Part shown: piece after piece, positions 34,080-61,934 of the stretch
Numbering within the stretch: the stretch's first letter is position 1
Layout of the letters: the number at the start of each line of letters is the position of its first letter
From: Reyranella sp.
Lineage (GTDB): Bacteria; Pseudomonadota; Alphaproteobacteria; Reyranellales; Reyranellaceae
Reading direction: 5' to 3'
NCBI RefSeq assembly: GCF_030651995.1
Contig: NZ_JAUSBN010000067.1
Coordinates: forward strand, 1-64,000
Length of the DNA stretch: 64,000 bases
Notes under the pieces: model-generated
Told to the model about the DNA's origin: nothing
The model's database searches: none
The model's input: the letters and a program-made list of their open reading frames with translations, nothing else
Translations under genes and position numbers: made by a program

Positions 34080-35182
34080 AACTTCAGGGCATCAAGGTCG
34101 TCGATCTCTCCTGGTTCCTGCCGGGTCCCTATCTCACTACGTCGCTGGCCGATCACGGCGCCGAGGTGATCAAGGTCGAGCCGCCGGGCGAGGGCGATCC
34201 CGGCCGTCACATCCTGCCGCCCGACCAGCGCACTTCGGTGTTCTTCCGCAACATGGGCCGCGGCAAGAAGAGCGTCGTGCTCGACCTCAAGAGCGAGCAG
34301 GGCCGTGCCGATCTCTTCCGTCTCGCCTGCGAGGCCGACGTGCTGGTCGAATCGTTCCGGCCCGGCGTCGCCGCCCGCTTCGGCATCGGCTACGAGGCCG
34401 TCGCGGCGAAGAACCCCGGCATCGTCTATTGCTCGATCAGCGCCTTCGGCCAGGACGGCGCCTATCCCGGCCGCGCCGCGCACGATCTCGCGCTGGAGGC
34501 CATGACCGGCGTGCTGAGCCTGACCCTGGGCGACGACGGCCGCCCCGCCATCCCCGGCATTCCGGTCGCCGACCTGGTGAGCGGTCTCCATGGTCTGGCC
34601 GGCGTGCTGATGGCGCTGCTGCGCCGCAAGGATACCGGCCGCGGCGACTATATCGACGTCTCGATGCACGAATCGCTGATGGCCTCCTGCGCCAACGTGG
34701 TCGGCACGACCTTCGCCGAGAACAAGGCGCCCGACGTGAAGCAGCAGCGCACGACCGGCGGCTCGGCATTCTATCGCGTCTACGACACGTCCGACGGCCG
34801 CCAGCTCGTGATCGCGGGCCAGGAGATGAAGTTCATCAGGAATCTGCTGGGGGCACTCGGCAAACCGGAGATGGCGCCGCTCTGCGAATGGCCCGGTGCG
34901 CACCAGAAGCCGGTAATGGACTTTCTCGCCGAAACCTTCCGCGCGAAGCCGCTCGCCCACTGGATGGACTATCTCGCGACGCTCGACATCTGCTACGGCC
35001 CGGTGAACACGCTCCCCGAAGCCATCGCCGACGCCAACCTGCAGAAGCGCGGCTTCATGGTGACCGACGCCGAAGGCCGCCTCCACTTCGGCCCCGTGGT
35101 GCGCTTCAGGAACGAACCGTCGAGCCCGCTCTATCGCGAGCCGCTGCTGGGTGAGCACACGGAGGAGGTACTCAGGCGTTAG
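34076..35182 (+). CDS. Second CaiB/BaiF CoA-transferase
   Basis: A 368-residue protein of the same family, with DLSWFLPGPYLTTSLADHG at the N-terminus and the catalytic aspartate in RAAHDLALEAMTG. ATG at 34076 overlaps the previous stop by four bases. Two CoA-transferases side by side may form a hetero-oligomer or use different acids; only the first is as long as the best-studied members. A repeat pair begins three bases after the stop. Confidence 0.9.
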   Translation: MKLQGIKVVDLSWFLPGPYLTTSLADHGAEVIKVEPPGEGDPGRHILPPDQRTSVFFRNMGRGKKSVVLDLKSEQGRADLFRLACEADVLVESFRPGVAARFGIGYEAVAAKNPGIVYCSISAFGQDGAYPGRAAHDLALEAMTGVLSLTLGDDGRPAIPGIPVADLVSGLHGLAGVLMALLRRKDTGRGDYIDVSMHESLMASCANVVGTTFAENKAPDVKQQRTTGGSAFYRVYDTSDGRQLVIAGQEMKFIRNLLGALGKPEMAPLCEWPGAHQKPVMDFLAETFRAKPLAHWMDYLATLDICYGPVNTLPEAIADANLQKRGFMVTDAEGRLHFGPVVRFRNEPSSPLYREPLLGEHTEEVLRR

Positions 35183-35185
35183 AGG

Positions 35186-35309
35186 AAAGGTCCCTCGCTT
35201 CGCTCGGGATGACAATTATGGGGTTGCCAAAGGTGTGCGTCCGCGAATGACATTGCGCACGTCATTGATAAAACCAAAATTGTCATCCCGAGCGAAGCGA
35301 GGGACCTTT
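35186..35309. repeat. REPIN-like paired inverted repeat, type A, perfect arms
   Basis: Two 32-bp arms (35186-35217 and 35278-35309) are exact reverse complements, separated by 60 bp. The arm starts AATTGTCATCCCGAGCGAAG when read toward the loop exit. It fills the convergent junction of the CoA-transferase and GIY-YIG genes, and the right arm contains the last codons and stop of the GIY-YIG gene. Confidence 0.92.
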
Positions 35310-35597
35310 GCCGATGTTTGGATCAAGTAAATCGGCCCAAGTCGGATTGGCGGCTTCGACCAACGCGTCCTTCTTGGACCTTCGCCAGCCTTTGATCTGC
35401 TTCTCACGCACGATCGCGTCTTCGATCTGCTGATATTCCTCGGCATAGACCAAAGTATGAACCCGATACTGCCGCGTGAAGGCGCCACCCGTGCCGGCCC
35501 GATGCTCGGCGATGCGCTTCCCTAAATCATTTGTGACGCCGACATACATCACGTTGCGCTTAACGTTCGTGAGAATGTAGACGTAGTAGGTGAACAT
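35283..35597 (-). CDS. GIY-YIG nuclease-family protein
   Basis: A 104-residue single-domain GIY-YIG protein. Active-site elements are present: YYVYILTN (GIY), MYVGVTND (YIG), the helix arginine and histidine in GKRIAEHR, the glutamate in AIVREKQIKGWRR and the asparagine of EAANPTW. Relatives are small nucleases of unknown biology. The last eight codons (KGPSLRSG, stop) are read through one arm of a flanking repeat. An earlier ATG at 35648 would lie in the other flanking repeat, so I use 35597. Repeat pairs enclose the gene on both sides. Confidence 0.9.
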   Translation of the reverse strand: MFTYYVYILTNVKRNVMYVGVTNDLGKRIAEHRAGTGGAFTRQYRVHTLVYAEEYQQIEDAIVREKQIKGWRRSKKDALVEAANPTWADLLDPNIGKGPSLRSG

Positions 35598-35605
35598 CGG
35601 TCGCC

Positions 35606-35702
35606 AAAGGTCCCTCGCTGCGCTCGGGATGACAACTTTCCGTAACAAATAGTGTTAGTCAACAACCCAAAATTGTCATCCCGAGCGCAGCGAGGGACCT
35701 TT
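35606..35702. repeat. REPIN-like paired inverted repeat, type A, second pair at the GIY-YIG gene
   Basis: Arms of 32 bp at 35606-35637 and 35671-35702 are reverse complements with one mismatch, separated by 33 bp. Their core reads GAGCGCAGCGAGGG, whereas the pair at 35186-35309 reads GAGCGAAGCGAGGG: both arms of a pair carry the same variant. It lies between the GIY-YIG start and the 3' end of the acyl-CoA dehydrogenase gene. Confidence 0.92.
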
Positions 35703-35707
35703 TGTTG

Positions 35708-37501
35708 CTATGCCGCCACCAACGCCACAGCCTTCGCCAACGGCACGGGCGCGTCGTCGAGGAGGAGGTTGATCGCTTCTTCCTCCCAACCTGACTCACC
35801 GAGCGACAGTGGATCCTGCGGCGCCAGGCGGTATTCGATGACGAGGCGTGACAGGAGGAGGCGGCGGGCATCGCCGCCTTCTGCGCCCAGCGTCGCGCCT
35901 TCCCAGGCCAGGAGGGCCGCCGTCGTGGCGTGATAGAGGGCGCCGGCGGCGAGGCGGGAGCGCTTTTCCTGTCTGGGATCGGCGGCAACCGCCTCGACGA
36001 AGCGTTCGACCCGGTCGAGCGTGGCGCCGAGCAGGCCCTTGTACTGGCCGGGCAGGGCACCGCTGGGTTCGTACTTCGCCTTCAGCGCGGCGGACAGCGT
36101 CTTGTGGCCGCCCGACTTGCCGACGGCGCGCTGCACGACGTCCAGCGCGTTGATGTTGGAGGTGCCTTCCCAGATCGTGCCGATCTGGGCGTCGCGCACC
36201 AGCCGTGCCGTCACCCATTCCTCGATGTAGCCGATGCCGCCGCGGACCTCGAGGGCGGCGCTGGCGACCGGGATATTGTCGCGGCAGGCGCGGAACTTGT
36301 AGACCGGCGTCAGGACACGCAGCAGGTTCGCGGCGTCCTTGTCCCCCTTGTCGGCGCGGCCCATCGCGTCGGCGGAGAAGGCGAACATCGACAGCGCCTG
36401 CTCGGTCGGCAGCATGATCTTCATGAGCTGGCGGCGCAGCAGCGGATACTCCGACGTGGGTTTGCCGAAGGCGCGGCGGCCGCGCGCGGCGGCCAATGCC
36501 TCGTTGAGGCAGCGGCGCATCATCGAGGCGGCGCGCACGCCATGGCTCAGCCGCGACAGGTTGACCTGGCTCATCATCTGCTTGAAGCCGTGGTTCACGT
36601 CGCCGACCAGATAGGCGGTGGCGCCGTCGAGCACGATCTCGCCCGACGCCATGGAGCGCGTGCCGAGCTTGTCCTTCAGGCGCACGATCCGGTAGCTGTT
36701 GCGGGAGCCGTCCTCGAGGCGCCGCGGCAGGGCGAACATGGCGAGACCGCGGGTGCCCGCCGCCGCACCGCGCGGGCGCGCGAGGATCAACGCCAGGTCG
36801 GCATCGGCATGGCTGCAGAACCACTTCTGGCCGTAGATCTTCCAGCGCTCGATCCCGTCGGCCCCGACGCCGATGCGCTCGGCCTCGGTCTCCAGCGCGC
36901 CGACGTCGGAGCCGCCGGCCTTCTCCGTCATCAGCTGCGCGCCCTTCATCATGTGTGCCGGGTCCTGGCTCAGCAGCCGGTCCATCAGCAGGCGCTTCAG
37001 TTCGGGCGAGGCGTGGGTCTTCATCGTGAAGTTCGACGTGTCGGACATCGAGACCGGGCACATCAGCCCGAACTCGCCTTGCACGAAGAGATAGGTGAAG
37101 GCGTACTTCACCAGCGGGTGTGCCGGCTCCGCCAGGCCGAGCACGCCGGCGCGATGGCTCATCGCGTGCAGGCCGTACTCCTCATAGGCGATCTTCTCCA
37201 TCTCGCGATAGGCGGGGTGGTAGTCGATCCAGTCCTCGTCGCGGCCGAAGCGGTCGCGCGGCTGCAGCACCGGCGGATGCTTGTCGGCGACCATCGCCAG
37301 CTCGTCGAGCCGGCCGCCGGCCAGCCCGCCCAGCCGCTCGAAGTGGGGCGTCATCTGCCGCAGCAGGCCGGGCTCCATGTAGAGCCGCATCAGGTCCTGG
37401 AACTGCCGGTCGATCGAATAGAAGTTCTGGCCGTGCACATCGACGGCGATGTGATGCGCGCCGTGCGGCCCTTCGTTCAGTCCGTGGGTCATGTCTGGCA
37501 T
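35708..37501 (-). CDS. AidB-like acyl-CoA dehydrogenase
   Basis: A 597-residue protein of the large acyl-CoA dehydrogenase class. It has an N-terminal extra domain (RQFQDLMRLYMEPGLL), the flavin-binding MTEKAGGSDVGALET and GQKWFCSHADAD, and IWEGTSNINALDVVQRAV near the end, which carries the glutamate. Members like AidB are tied to alkylation damage or aberrant acyl groups, others to fatty acid degradation. It follows the sirtuin gene by 27 bp. Confidence 0.88.
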   Translation of the reverse strand: MPDMTHGLNEGPHGAHHIAVDVHGQNFYSIDRQFQDLMRLYMEPGLLRQMTPHFERLGGLAGGRLDELAMVADKHPPVLQPRDRFGRDEDWIDYHPAYREMEKIAYEEYGLHAMSHRAGVLGLAEPAHPLVKYAFTYLFVQGEFGLMCPVSMSDTSNFTMKTHASPELKRLLMDRLLSQDPAHMMKGAQLMTEKAGGSDVGALETEAERIGVGADGIERWKIYGQKWFCSHADADLALILARPRGAAAGTRGLAMFALPRRLEDGSRNSYRIVRLKDKLGTRSMASGEIVLDGATAYLVGDVNHGFKQMMSQVNLSRLSHGVRAASMMRRCLNEALAAARGRRAFGKPTSEYPLLRRQLMKIMLPTEQALSMFAFSADAMGRADKGDKDAANLLRVLTPVYKFRACRDNIPVASAALEVRGGIGYIEEWVTARLVRDAQIGTIWEGTSNINALDVVQRAVGKSGGHKTLSAALKAKYEPSGALPGQYKGLLGATLDRVERFVEAVAADPRQEKRSRLAAGALYHATTAALLAWEGATLGAEGGDARRLLLSRLVIEYRLAPQDPLSLGESGWEEEAINLLLDDAPVPLAKAVALVAA

Positions 37502-43037: not shown

Positions 43038-43127
43038 TTGTCATCCTGAGCGCAGCGAAGGATCTCGCGCCCGCAAAGGAGTGCTCTGATCGTTCCGTGA
43101 GGTCCTTCGCTGTGCTCAGGACGACAG
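43038..43127. repeat. REPIN-like paired inverted repeat, type A variant
   Basis: Left arm (43038-43065) starts TTGTCATCCTGAGCGCAGCG; right arm (43100-43127), reverse-complemented, starts CTGTCGTCCTGAGCACAGCG. They share CCTGAGC and CAGCGAAGGA, distinguishing this pair from the CCCGAGCG type. It fills the convergent gap between the phosphotriesterase-like and ThpR genes. Confidence 0.8.
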
Positions 43128-61835: not shown

Positions 61836-61934
61836 AAAGGTCCCTCACTCCGTTCGGGATGACATCATTTGTTTGGTGAGCGCACTGCGCCAAACCCAGC
61901 AAAATTGTCATCCCGAACGGAGTGAGGGACCCTT
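61836..61934. repeat. REPIN-like paired inverted repeat, type A, third variant
   Basis: Arms (61836-61866 and 61903-61934) are reverse complements over the core GTCATCCCGAACGGAGTGAG. The core (CGAACGGAGTG) differs from the pairs at 35 kb, yet both arms carry it. It fills the convergent gap between the GNAT and mrp genes. Confidence 0.92.

Follow-up and report, generated by a model that had tools for sequence, protein, structure and literature searches.

REPs fall into two superfamilies, GTAG and CGTC (Di Nocera et al. 2013, PMC3733652). According to that study, CGTC REPs have the tag CGTC, TGTC or CCTC and a stem that starts with AT, occur mostly in alpha-Proteobacteria, and are known from five phyla, including Rickettsia, Wolbachia and Neisseria; Neisseria dRS3 and Rickettsia RPE-4 and RPE-6 belong to them. 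In the same study, no transposase gene regularly adjoins the CGTC REPs, and what moves them is left open. RAYTs, the transposases of the REPIN-RAYT systems, recognise the tag plus the hairpin (PMC6006769). GIY-YIG nucleases are known as homing enzymes (PMC1564403); the text of that paper contains neither 'palindrom' nor 'flank'. Our literature search, which had bioRxiv preprints and most subscription journals outside its range, found no report of a link between a GIY-YIG nuclease and REPs among the titles and abstract openings listed.

A GIY-YIG gene between two pairs of CGTC-type repeats

The window, a 64,000-nt stretch of a Reyranella sp. genome (contig NZ_JAUSBN010000067.1), contains four copies of GTCATCCCGAGCGNAGCGAGGGACC around a 104-aa GIY-YIG gene, all inside a 525-bp gap between two convergent genes (Table 1). 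From their sequences, and with no search, we take the neighbours to encode a CoA-transferase and an acyl-CoA dehydrogenase. Along the gap, the arms run minus, plus, gene, minus, plus, and all four are GTCATCCCGAGCGNAGCGAGGGACCTTT with zero mismatches. As the original prediction held, the gap consists entirely of repeat pair, GIY-YIG gene and repeat pair, the core variants differ between the two sides, and the gene's stop, together with the eight codons before it, lies within one arm. A longer frame had also been said to reach another arm at the 5' side; this alternative 121-aa frame, with a TTG start at 35648, matches PF01541 with E 3.5e-17 and would indeed cross the arm at 35606-35633. In family A, to which the window arms belong, eight or more genes have a C-terminal PSLRSG or SSLRSE that is encoded by the arm itself, so that gene and arm share bases. 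The linked gene is of the GIY-YIG kind rather than a RAYT, again as predicted, and no Y1/HUH gene lies in the gap.

Table 1. Coordinates of the locus and other repeats in the window, with the repeat families of the genus.
Feature	Position	Strand	Details
Neighbouring gene, presumably CoA-transferase	ends 35182	+	stop at 35182
Intergenic gap, 525 bp	35183..35707	.	dimer / gene / dimer
Outer left CGTC-REP arm	35186-35213	-	core GAGCGAAGCGA; tag GTC at 35213-35211; pattern match
Inner left arm	35282-35309	+	core GAGCGAAGCGA; contains the nuclease gene's stop and final eight codons; pattern match
Inner right arm	35606-35633	-	core GAGCGCAGCGA; pattern match
Outer right arm	35675-35702	+	core GAGCGCAGCGA; pattern match
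GIY-YIG nuclease CDS, 104 aa + stop	35283..35597	-	subgroup A; ATG 35597, stop 35285-35283
GIY-YIG catalytic domain PF01541	35373..35588	-	E 1.0e-16
Putative inner unit, TGTC-arm / gene / arm-GACA	35281..35634	.	boundary placed from paralogous copies of other families
Neighbouring gene, presumably acyl-CoA dehydrogenase	35708-37501	-	stop at 35708
D-type repeat, single copy	43040..43064	+	GTCATCCTGAGCGCAGCGAAGGATC
Diverged A-type arm dimer	61841..61929	.	61841-61863 (-), 61907-61929 (+)
Family A			CCC-GAGCGNAGCGA-GGG
Families B, B2			longer loops
Family C			CCTC tag
Family D			CCT-GAGCGNAGCGA-AGG
Family E			ATTGC-GAGCGNAGCGA

Within the window, the 23-nt core is matched seven times at up to three mismatches, against 0.00 expected from 100 shuffles. 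The whole genome of the window (G000; 5.5 Mb, 92 contigs) has 153 repeat copies at the same stringency, and the reversed pattern gives 0. Two CGTC repeats elsewhere in the window, one paired (61841-61929) and one single (43040-43064), have no nuclease gene seen alongside. Rfam gave three matches over 35000-36000, all to microRNA models and below their gathering scores, and no intron family; we attribute these matches to the palindromes and reject a known RNA family at the locus. A phage origin was likewise rejected, with 0 matches among 50,697 phage records.

The repeats seen here fit the description of CGTC-tagged REPs. They are palindromes of 20-40 nt with an unpaired CGTC, TGTC or CCTC tag and an AT-starting stem, present in many dispersed copies per genome and in opposite-orientation pairs. 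Part of the family B copies read GTCGT, so the AT stem start is not universal. Single-stranded folding gave hairpins in 7/7 arms tried, but arms of families A, B, D and E fold with no better energy than shuffles. In PMC3733652, CGTC REPs are like the repeats seen here in their tag, mostly AT-first stems, paired copies and alpha-proteobacterial bias, but they are described without an associated transposase, whereas here a GIY-YIG gene would be the partner.

The likeness to REPIN-RAYT systems lies in the short tagged palindromes, their opposite-orientation pairs and dispersal between genes, in the single enzyme gene amid its own repeat family, and in the joint divergence of enzyme and repeat. 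REPIN-RAYT, however, has a Y1/HUH transposase and GTAG, whereas the system of the window has a GIY-YIG nuclease and CGTC (TGTC, CCTC): no Y1/HUH tyrosine transposase is linked, and the tag is GTC. In addition, several enzyme-repeat pairs coexist in one genome in this genus. Because the enzyme is flanked by its own co-diverging repeat family, with a different enzyme in place, the system appears to work like REPIN-RAYT without being one.

The protein belongs to the GIY-YIG superfamily by its PF01541 match, by the GIY and YIG tyrosines, and by the Arg and the Glu, the last of which lies within the search pattern. Residues Y7, Y18, G20, R28, H32 and N84 are kept in 45/45 aligned rows (the window and 44 of the best 80 loci of the wide survey below); E65 is part of the peptide pattern of that scan, so its invariance is uninformative. 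When solved structures were compared with the profile, UPF0213 proteins matched it (E 2.1e-13, 1zg2, and 3e-11), and so, weakly, did Slx1 (0.0011) and UvrC (0.0086). UPF0213/YhbQ-like and Slx1 nucleases are thus the nearest solved structures by sequence and share the single small domain, and we know of no tie of either to repeats. Homing endonucleases of the I-TevI kind share the GIY-YIG domain and the absence of the gene at orthologous sites, but the window gene has no NUMOD domain among its Pfam matches and no intron family nearby, and sits amid dispersed hairpin repeats.

Tagged hairpins beside GIY-YIG genes in the genus and across phyla

Besides the window gene, the genome of the window has four PF01541 matches: three further small ones and a frame of 663 aa, whose length points to UvrC. 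The small ones lie amid repeats of two other families. One (L002) is between copies of the GTCGTCCCGACCGGAGCG family, one (L003) is between 51-nt perfectly complementary arms of the CCTCATCCTGAGGAG...GTCTCGAAGGATG family, and one with an in-frame TAG (L004) is amid several copies of the latter.

In 25 genomes of the same genus, we collected 61 non-UvrC PF01541 matches, decayed and unlike ones included. Four were dropped for a flank below 150 bp at a contig end, leaving 57 testable. The flank test took an inverted local match between the left and right 350 bp, with a score of at least 20. Inverted flanking repeats were found at 46/57 matches and at 0/570 random control sites in the same loci; with direct matches also counted, 3/570 control sites reach the threshold. 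As further controls, uvrC genes were flanked in 0/20 cases, none scoring above 12.5 (20 of 24 uvrC loci examined). The 11 matches below the threshold are of three kinds. L072, L075, L078 and L098 form a separate clade on the protein tree, and L096 and L102 are other GIY-YIG types. The remaining five, L042, L052, L067, L074 and L094, belong to repeat-linked clades, and the first four of these keep an arm on at least one side. In the unflanked clade, three of four genes have a tRNA gene about 150 bp or less upstream (tRNA-Ser at L072 and L075, tRNA-Val at L098), and L078 has none within the stretch examined. A test for a GTC tag on an exact stem found tags on both sides of 12 of the 61 genus matches, on one side of 5 and on neither side of 44; family A, the window's own, has an A-C pair at the base of its stem and so escapes this test. 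One genome, G005, has ten non-UvrC matches (L046, L065-L068, L073, L079, L081, L085, L096). Four of them are close B-family copies, two of which are cut at the gene by contig ends, as expected of recent copies.

For a wider view, a profile of eleven genus proteins was used in a scan that matched at least 585 stretches. The best 80 loci were kept on the protein criterion only, and 77 of them had enough flank (L161, L167 and L193 were dropped). The tag test required a hairpin within 350 bp of the gene, with GTC immediately ahead of a stem that starts with AT and is 5 bp or longer. Such hairpins lie on both sides of the gene in 37 of the 77 best loci, on one side in 23 and on neither in 17, against 5, 132 and 1395 of 1532 control sites in the same loci. 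The stem pairing is built into the hairpin search, and the excess over the controls is independent of its design. Seven other trinucleotide tags gave both sides in only 0-3 of the 77 loci. The inverted-flank score alone, at 20 or more, picked 19/77 best loci and 6/766 controls. The stems are diverse at a constant GTC tag (ATCCT/AGGAT, ATTTC/GAAAT, ATGCTGAA/TTCAGCAT, ATCCC/GGGAT). By record titles, the both-side loci come from Clostridia, Bacteroidales, Bifidobacterium, Chloroflexi, Verrucomicrobia, Chlorobiaceae, Calditrichota, Omnitrophota, Planctomycetota, Gammaproteobacteria, Desulfobulbaceae, Granulicella and candidate-phylum genomes.

Named replicons were covered as well. A tblastn search of plasmid records returned 32 records, and of 11 loci examined, 9 are flanked on both sides, 1 on one side (Photobacterium) and 1 on neither (Rhizobium K1/93). 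The nine are Novosphingobium aromaticivorans pNL2, Azospirillum lipoferum AZO_p3, Sinorhizobium meliloti pSymB, Neisseria gonorrhoeae, Planktothrix, Sphingobium, Rhizobium CIAT894, Spirosoma and Shinella. The calls for N. aromaticivorans (31), Sphingobium (28) and the 3' side of S. meliloti (26) come from the inverted-flank score and not from the AT-stem test, and Spirosoma has hairpins on both sides that are unlike each other (inverted score 17). N. aromaticivorans, A. lipoferum, S. meliloti and Neisseria are CGTC-positive taxa in PMC3733652. In the suf operon of A. lipoferum AZO_p3 (L345), the nuclease cassette separates sufB from sufC. The N. gonorrhoeae frame (L347) is within an array of dRS3-like CGTC repeats, on a chromosome-sized record in the plasmid collection.

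At class level, 144 genomes at least 90% complete were surveyed, and 63 of them encode a relative of the gene (E <=1e-10). A narrow class-wide pattern proved too specific, being present in 7/144 genomes only, and was replaced by the broader GTCATYCCN{8,18}GGRATC with a threshold of at least 10 copies, which covers only part of the repeat families. The co-occurrence of gene and repeat, put forward as a check of the original prediction, is visible here: the threshold is reached in 20/63 genomes with the gene and in 2/81 without it (Fisher p 9e-7, phylogeny uncorrected). Leaving out the two genomes of the window's genus gives 19/61 and 2/81 (p 1.6e-6, phylogeny uncorrected), and a size-matched subset, drawn up by hand from rounded genome sizes, gives 13/33 and 2/29. 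Fewer than 10 broad-pattern copies are present in 43/63 genomes with the gene, and genomes without it hold 81 copies (G061), 41 copies (G115) and, of a narrower pattern, 15 copies (G100). When one region per genome was sampled in 40 genomes that have the gene and 40 that lack it, the excess was weak (p 0.03 and 0.045). We do not rely on it, the permuted tag TCG having given 74 vs 48 hairpins in the first test and 18 vs 19 in the second.

Enzyme clade and repeat family go together

Repeat families were assigned from the flanks alone at the 61 genus loci, giving 12 labels for A, 18 for B, 4 for B2, 8 for C, 9 for D, 1 for E and 9 for none. The protein tree comprises 58 of the 61 proteins (without L096 and L102, which are other types, and L100, which is too short) and is built on few columns, so that many of its forks are unresolved. 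On this tree, the repeat-family label changes 11 times, against a shuffled mean of 35.4 and a minimum possible of 6. These sequence comparisons show that GIY-YIG clade and repeat family go together. The exception is a decayed A-type protein amid D-type repeats (L092). One genome may hold several enzyme-repeat pairs; the genome of the window holds A, B and C.

Copy numbers follow the same pairing. The test covered families A, C and D in the 25 genus genomes; the decayed gene A of G011 was called present, and the decayed D copies of G001 and G017 were not. The copy number of each repeat tracks the presence of its own GIY-YIG subgroup, with an AUC of 0.84 for A (p 0.002), 0.79 for C (p 0.016) and 1.00 for D (p 0.0001), whereas non-matching pairs give 0.49-0.63. 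The co-occurrence looked for thus extends to the single subgroup. Family D has 35-130 copies in the six genomes with gene D and 0-34 in the nineteen without it. The link is not absolute, because repeats persist where the matching gene is lacking: family A has 109 copies in G014 and 65 in G002, family C has 108 in G015 and 90 in G008, and the class genomes G061, G100 and G115 are of the same kind. It is also loosened because some cassettes are inherited in place (see below).

In two closed genomes, the nuclease gene lies in a dense cluster of its resident repeat family, a pattern that looks like local dispersal. In G022, 18/20 repeat events lie within 10% of the genome (2.45-2.82 Mb); in G016, 29/84 events do so among the copies listed (100 of 113; 0-0.43 Mb). 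The mean distance is smaller for about 2% of random centres in both. Gene-centred clustering is absent in G039 among the copies listed (27 of 33). As a separate observation, the inner stem of family C is hypervariable yet mostly paired (GGCCGCGCAGCGGCC, GGCGCGCAGCGCC, CATCGCGCAGCGATG), and this pairing suggests selection on the hairpin.

Possible movement of the cassette and competing explanations

The acyl-CoA dehydrogenase gene is present in 24/24 relatives, and the convergent CoA-transferase gene is also found in 12 loci. The original prediction looked to such orthologous junctions for absence of the cassette, and its gene is missing from all 12 relatives with both neighbours (0/12, no PF01541 match nearby on those contigs). 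In G023, the stop codons lie side by side, with 2 nt between the aligned ends, and in G008 the junction has 24 nt that include half an arm. The G015 junction has one dimer and no gene; the dimer begins at the same distance from the CoA-transferase stop as in the window. In G017, the junction holds a dimer of a different family, and in G021 and G003 it holds other palindromes. In the other six relatives, 692-1267 nt with no recognised arm separate the two genes.

Cassettes at different places also indicate where the unit ends. Thirteen cassette pairs were compared by BLAST. Two cassettes at different places of G018 (L062/L089) are alike from the CGTC tag to the GACG tag and unlike outside; L003 of the window's genome and L077 of G023 are alike from CCTC to the far arm and unlike outside; and L066/L085 of G005 are nearly alike tag to tag, with an inserted stretch in one arm. 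In L079/L081, the likeness starts some 50 nt ahead of the tag, and in several other pairs it ends inside the arms. L053/L076 and L069/L087 share long flanks, so these cassettes were inherited in place. By comparison with the units of other families, the inner unit of the window, tagged at either end, is likely the smallest element that carries the gene. In the window's genome, 30 overlapping repeat loci contain 11 distinct gene-less pairs with outward tags and 11-14 nt between the AAAGG/CCTTT tails. Their spacers have no sequence common to all. Four of the gene-less pairs (L010, L017, L018, L031) are alike inside and beyond the arms, and a longer gene-less unit may exist.

The proposal of a candidate repeat-mobilising cassette gains support from the co-occurrence and orthologous-junction comparisons, and we consider that the locus is probably a REPIN-like mobile system in its gene-bearing form, with a GIY-YIG nuclease instead of the RAYT. 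The ends of the unit would be CGTC-tagged hairpin repeats, and the single-domain nuclease would fill the role that RAYTs (Y1/HUH) have for GTAG REPs. Gene-less repeat pairs would be the non-autonomous relatives of the gene-bearing unit. The nuclease would bind the tag and hairpin in single-stranded or extruded DNA and cut beside the tag, and host repair synthesis would then copy the hairpin-ended unit to a new place, whether or not the unit carries the gene. A GIY-YIG enzyme is expected to hydrolyse DNA with no covalent intermediate, and therefore joining would depend on host repair.

The GIY-YIG enzyme is likely the missing partner of the CGTC REPs, a large class described as enzyme-less. CGTC-tagged hairpins lie beside the nuclease also in Clostridia, Bacteroidota, Chloroflexi, Bifidobacterium and candidate-phylum genomes, and we are inclined, if only slightly, towards a bacteria-wide class of mobile DNA. 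In this class, a single-domain, hydrolytic GIY-YIG nuclease would be the sole element-borne enzyme, recognising the GTC tag and hairpin and spreading CGTC REPs (Neisseria dRS3 included) and its own gene by cut-and-repair. If true, this would answer the question of what moves CGTC REPs, which PMC3733652 left open in 2013. It would also add a second, independent REP-enzyme partnership alongside the RAYTs, and give a function to a very common gene annotated merely as GIY-YIG family protein. With a small single-domain nuclease and a defined partner hairpin, the question is testable in vitro.

The alternative that survives best, though unlikely, is that the gene encodes a homing endonuclease living in REPs, which cuts dimers and copies itself in while something else moves the repeats. 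Enzymes of this fold are known to home (PMC1564403). The nearest tags point outward on both sides in 20/37 both-side loci of the wide survey (input 47 of the best 80 loci), as in gene-less pairs, and the gene may accordingly have inserted into a pair's spacer. An abundance of targets would favour such a gene and would also yield the copy-number link. However, the gene-less spacers share no common sequence, and the likeness of L062/L089 and L003/L077 spans both arms as far as the tags. These repeats flank neither uvrC nor Y1, the other genes tested, and the family-specific link would require each homing enzyme to follow one REP family.

We regard as quite improbable a caretaker role, in which a structure-specific nuclease like eukaryotic Slx1 would resolve or prune REP cruciforms, the linkage reflecting co-inheritance with no transposition. 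The profile matches to UPF0213 structures and, weakly, to Slx1 (0.0011) and UvrC (0.0086) are in its favour, but a caretaker has no need for a position inside the repeats and is expected to bring the copy number of its own family down, not up. That the repeats simply accumulate in gaps, where small dispensable genes become flanked by chance, agrees with the several repeat kinds at the window junction in sister species but is very improbable given control sites flanked in 0/570 and 5/1532 cases in the same loci, and subgroups that keep their own repeat family even inside one genome.

It is hardly credible that a RAYT or other Y1 transposase of the same genome moves the repeats and that the GIY-YIG link is incidental, and we reject it as the main reading. 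Y1_Tnp genes (the RAYT kind) are present in 15/25 genus genomes, as this explanation needs, but none of 23 Y1 loci has one and the same CGTC family within 800 bp on both sides (one locus is almost without a right flank, and three have a shortened one), whereas the identical test is positive at 34/61 GIY-YIG loci. The 10/25 genomes with no Y1_Tnp match include the repeat-rich G006 (455 C copies) and G022 (35 D copies), and PMC3733652 reports no transposase gene regularly adjoining CGTC REPs. Six Y1 loci (L361, L355, L363, L367, L372, L375) have as their best inverted match a different repeat, TCATG-ending in five. Because Y1 loci carry other repeats than GIY-YIG loci, two enzyme-REP partnerships seem, at the level of sequence, to run side by side in the genus. 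One such Y1 locus repeat is GGACCGCGGGCCTCCAGGCCCGCTCATG, and similar-looking GC-rich palindromes are present at the orthologous junction in G021 and G003.
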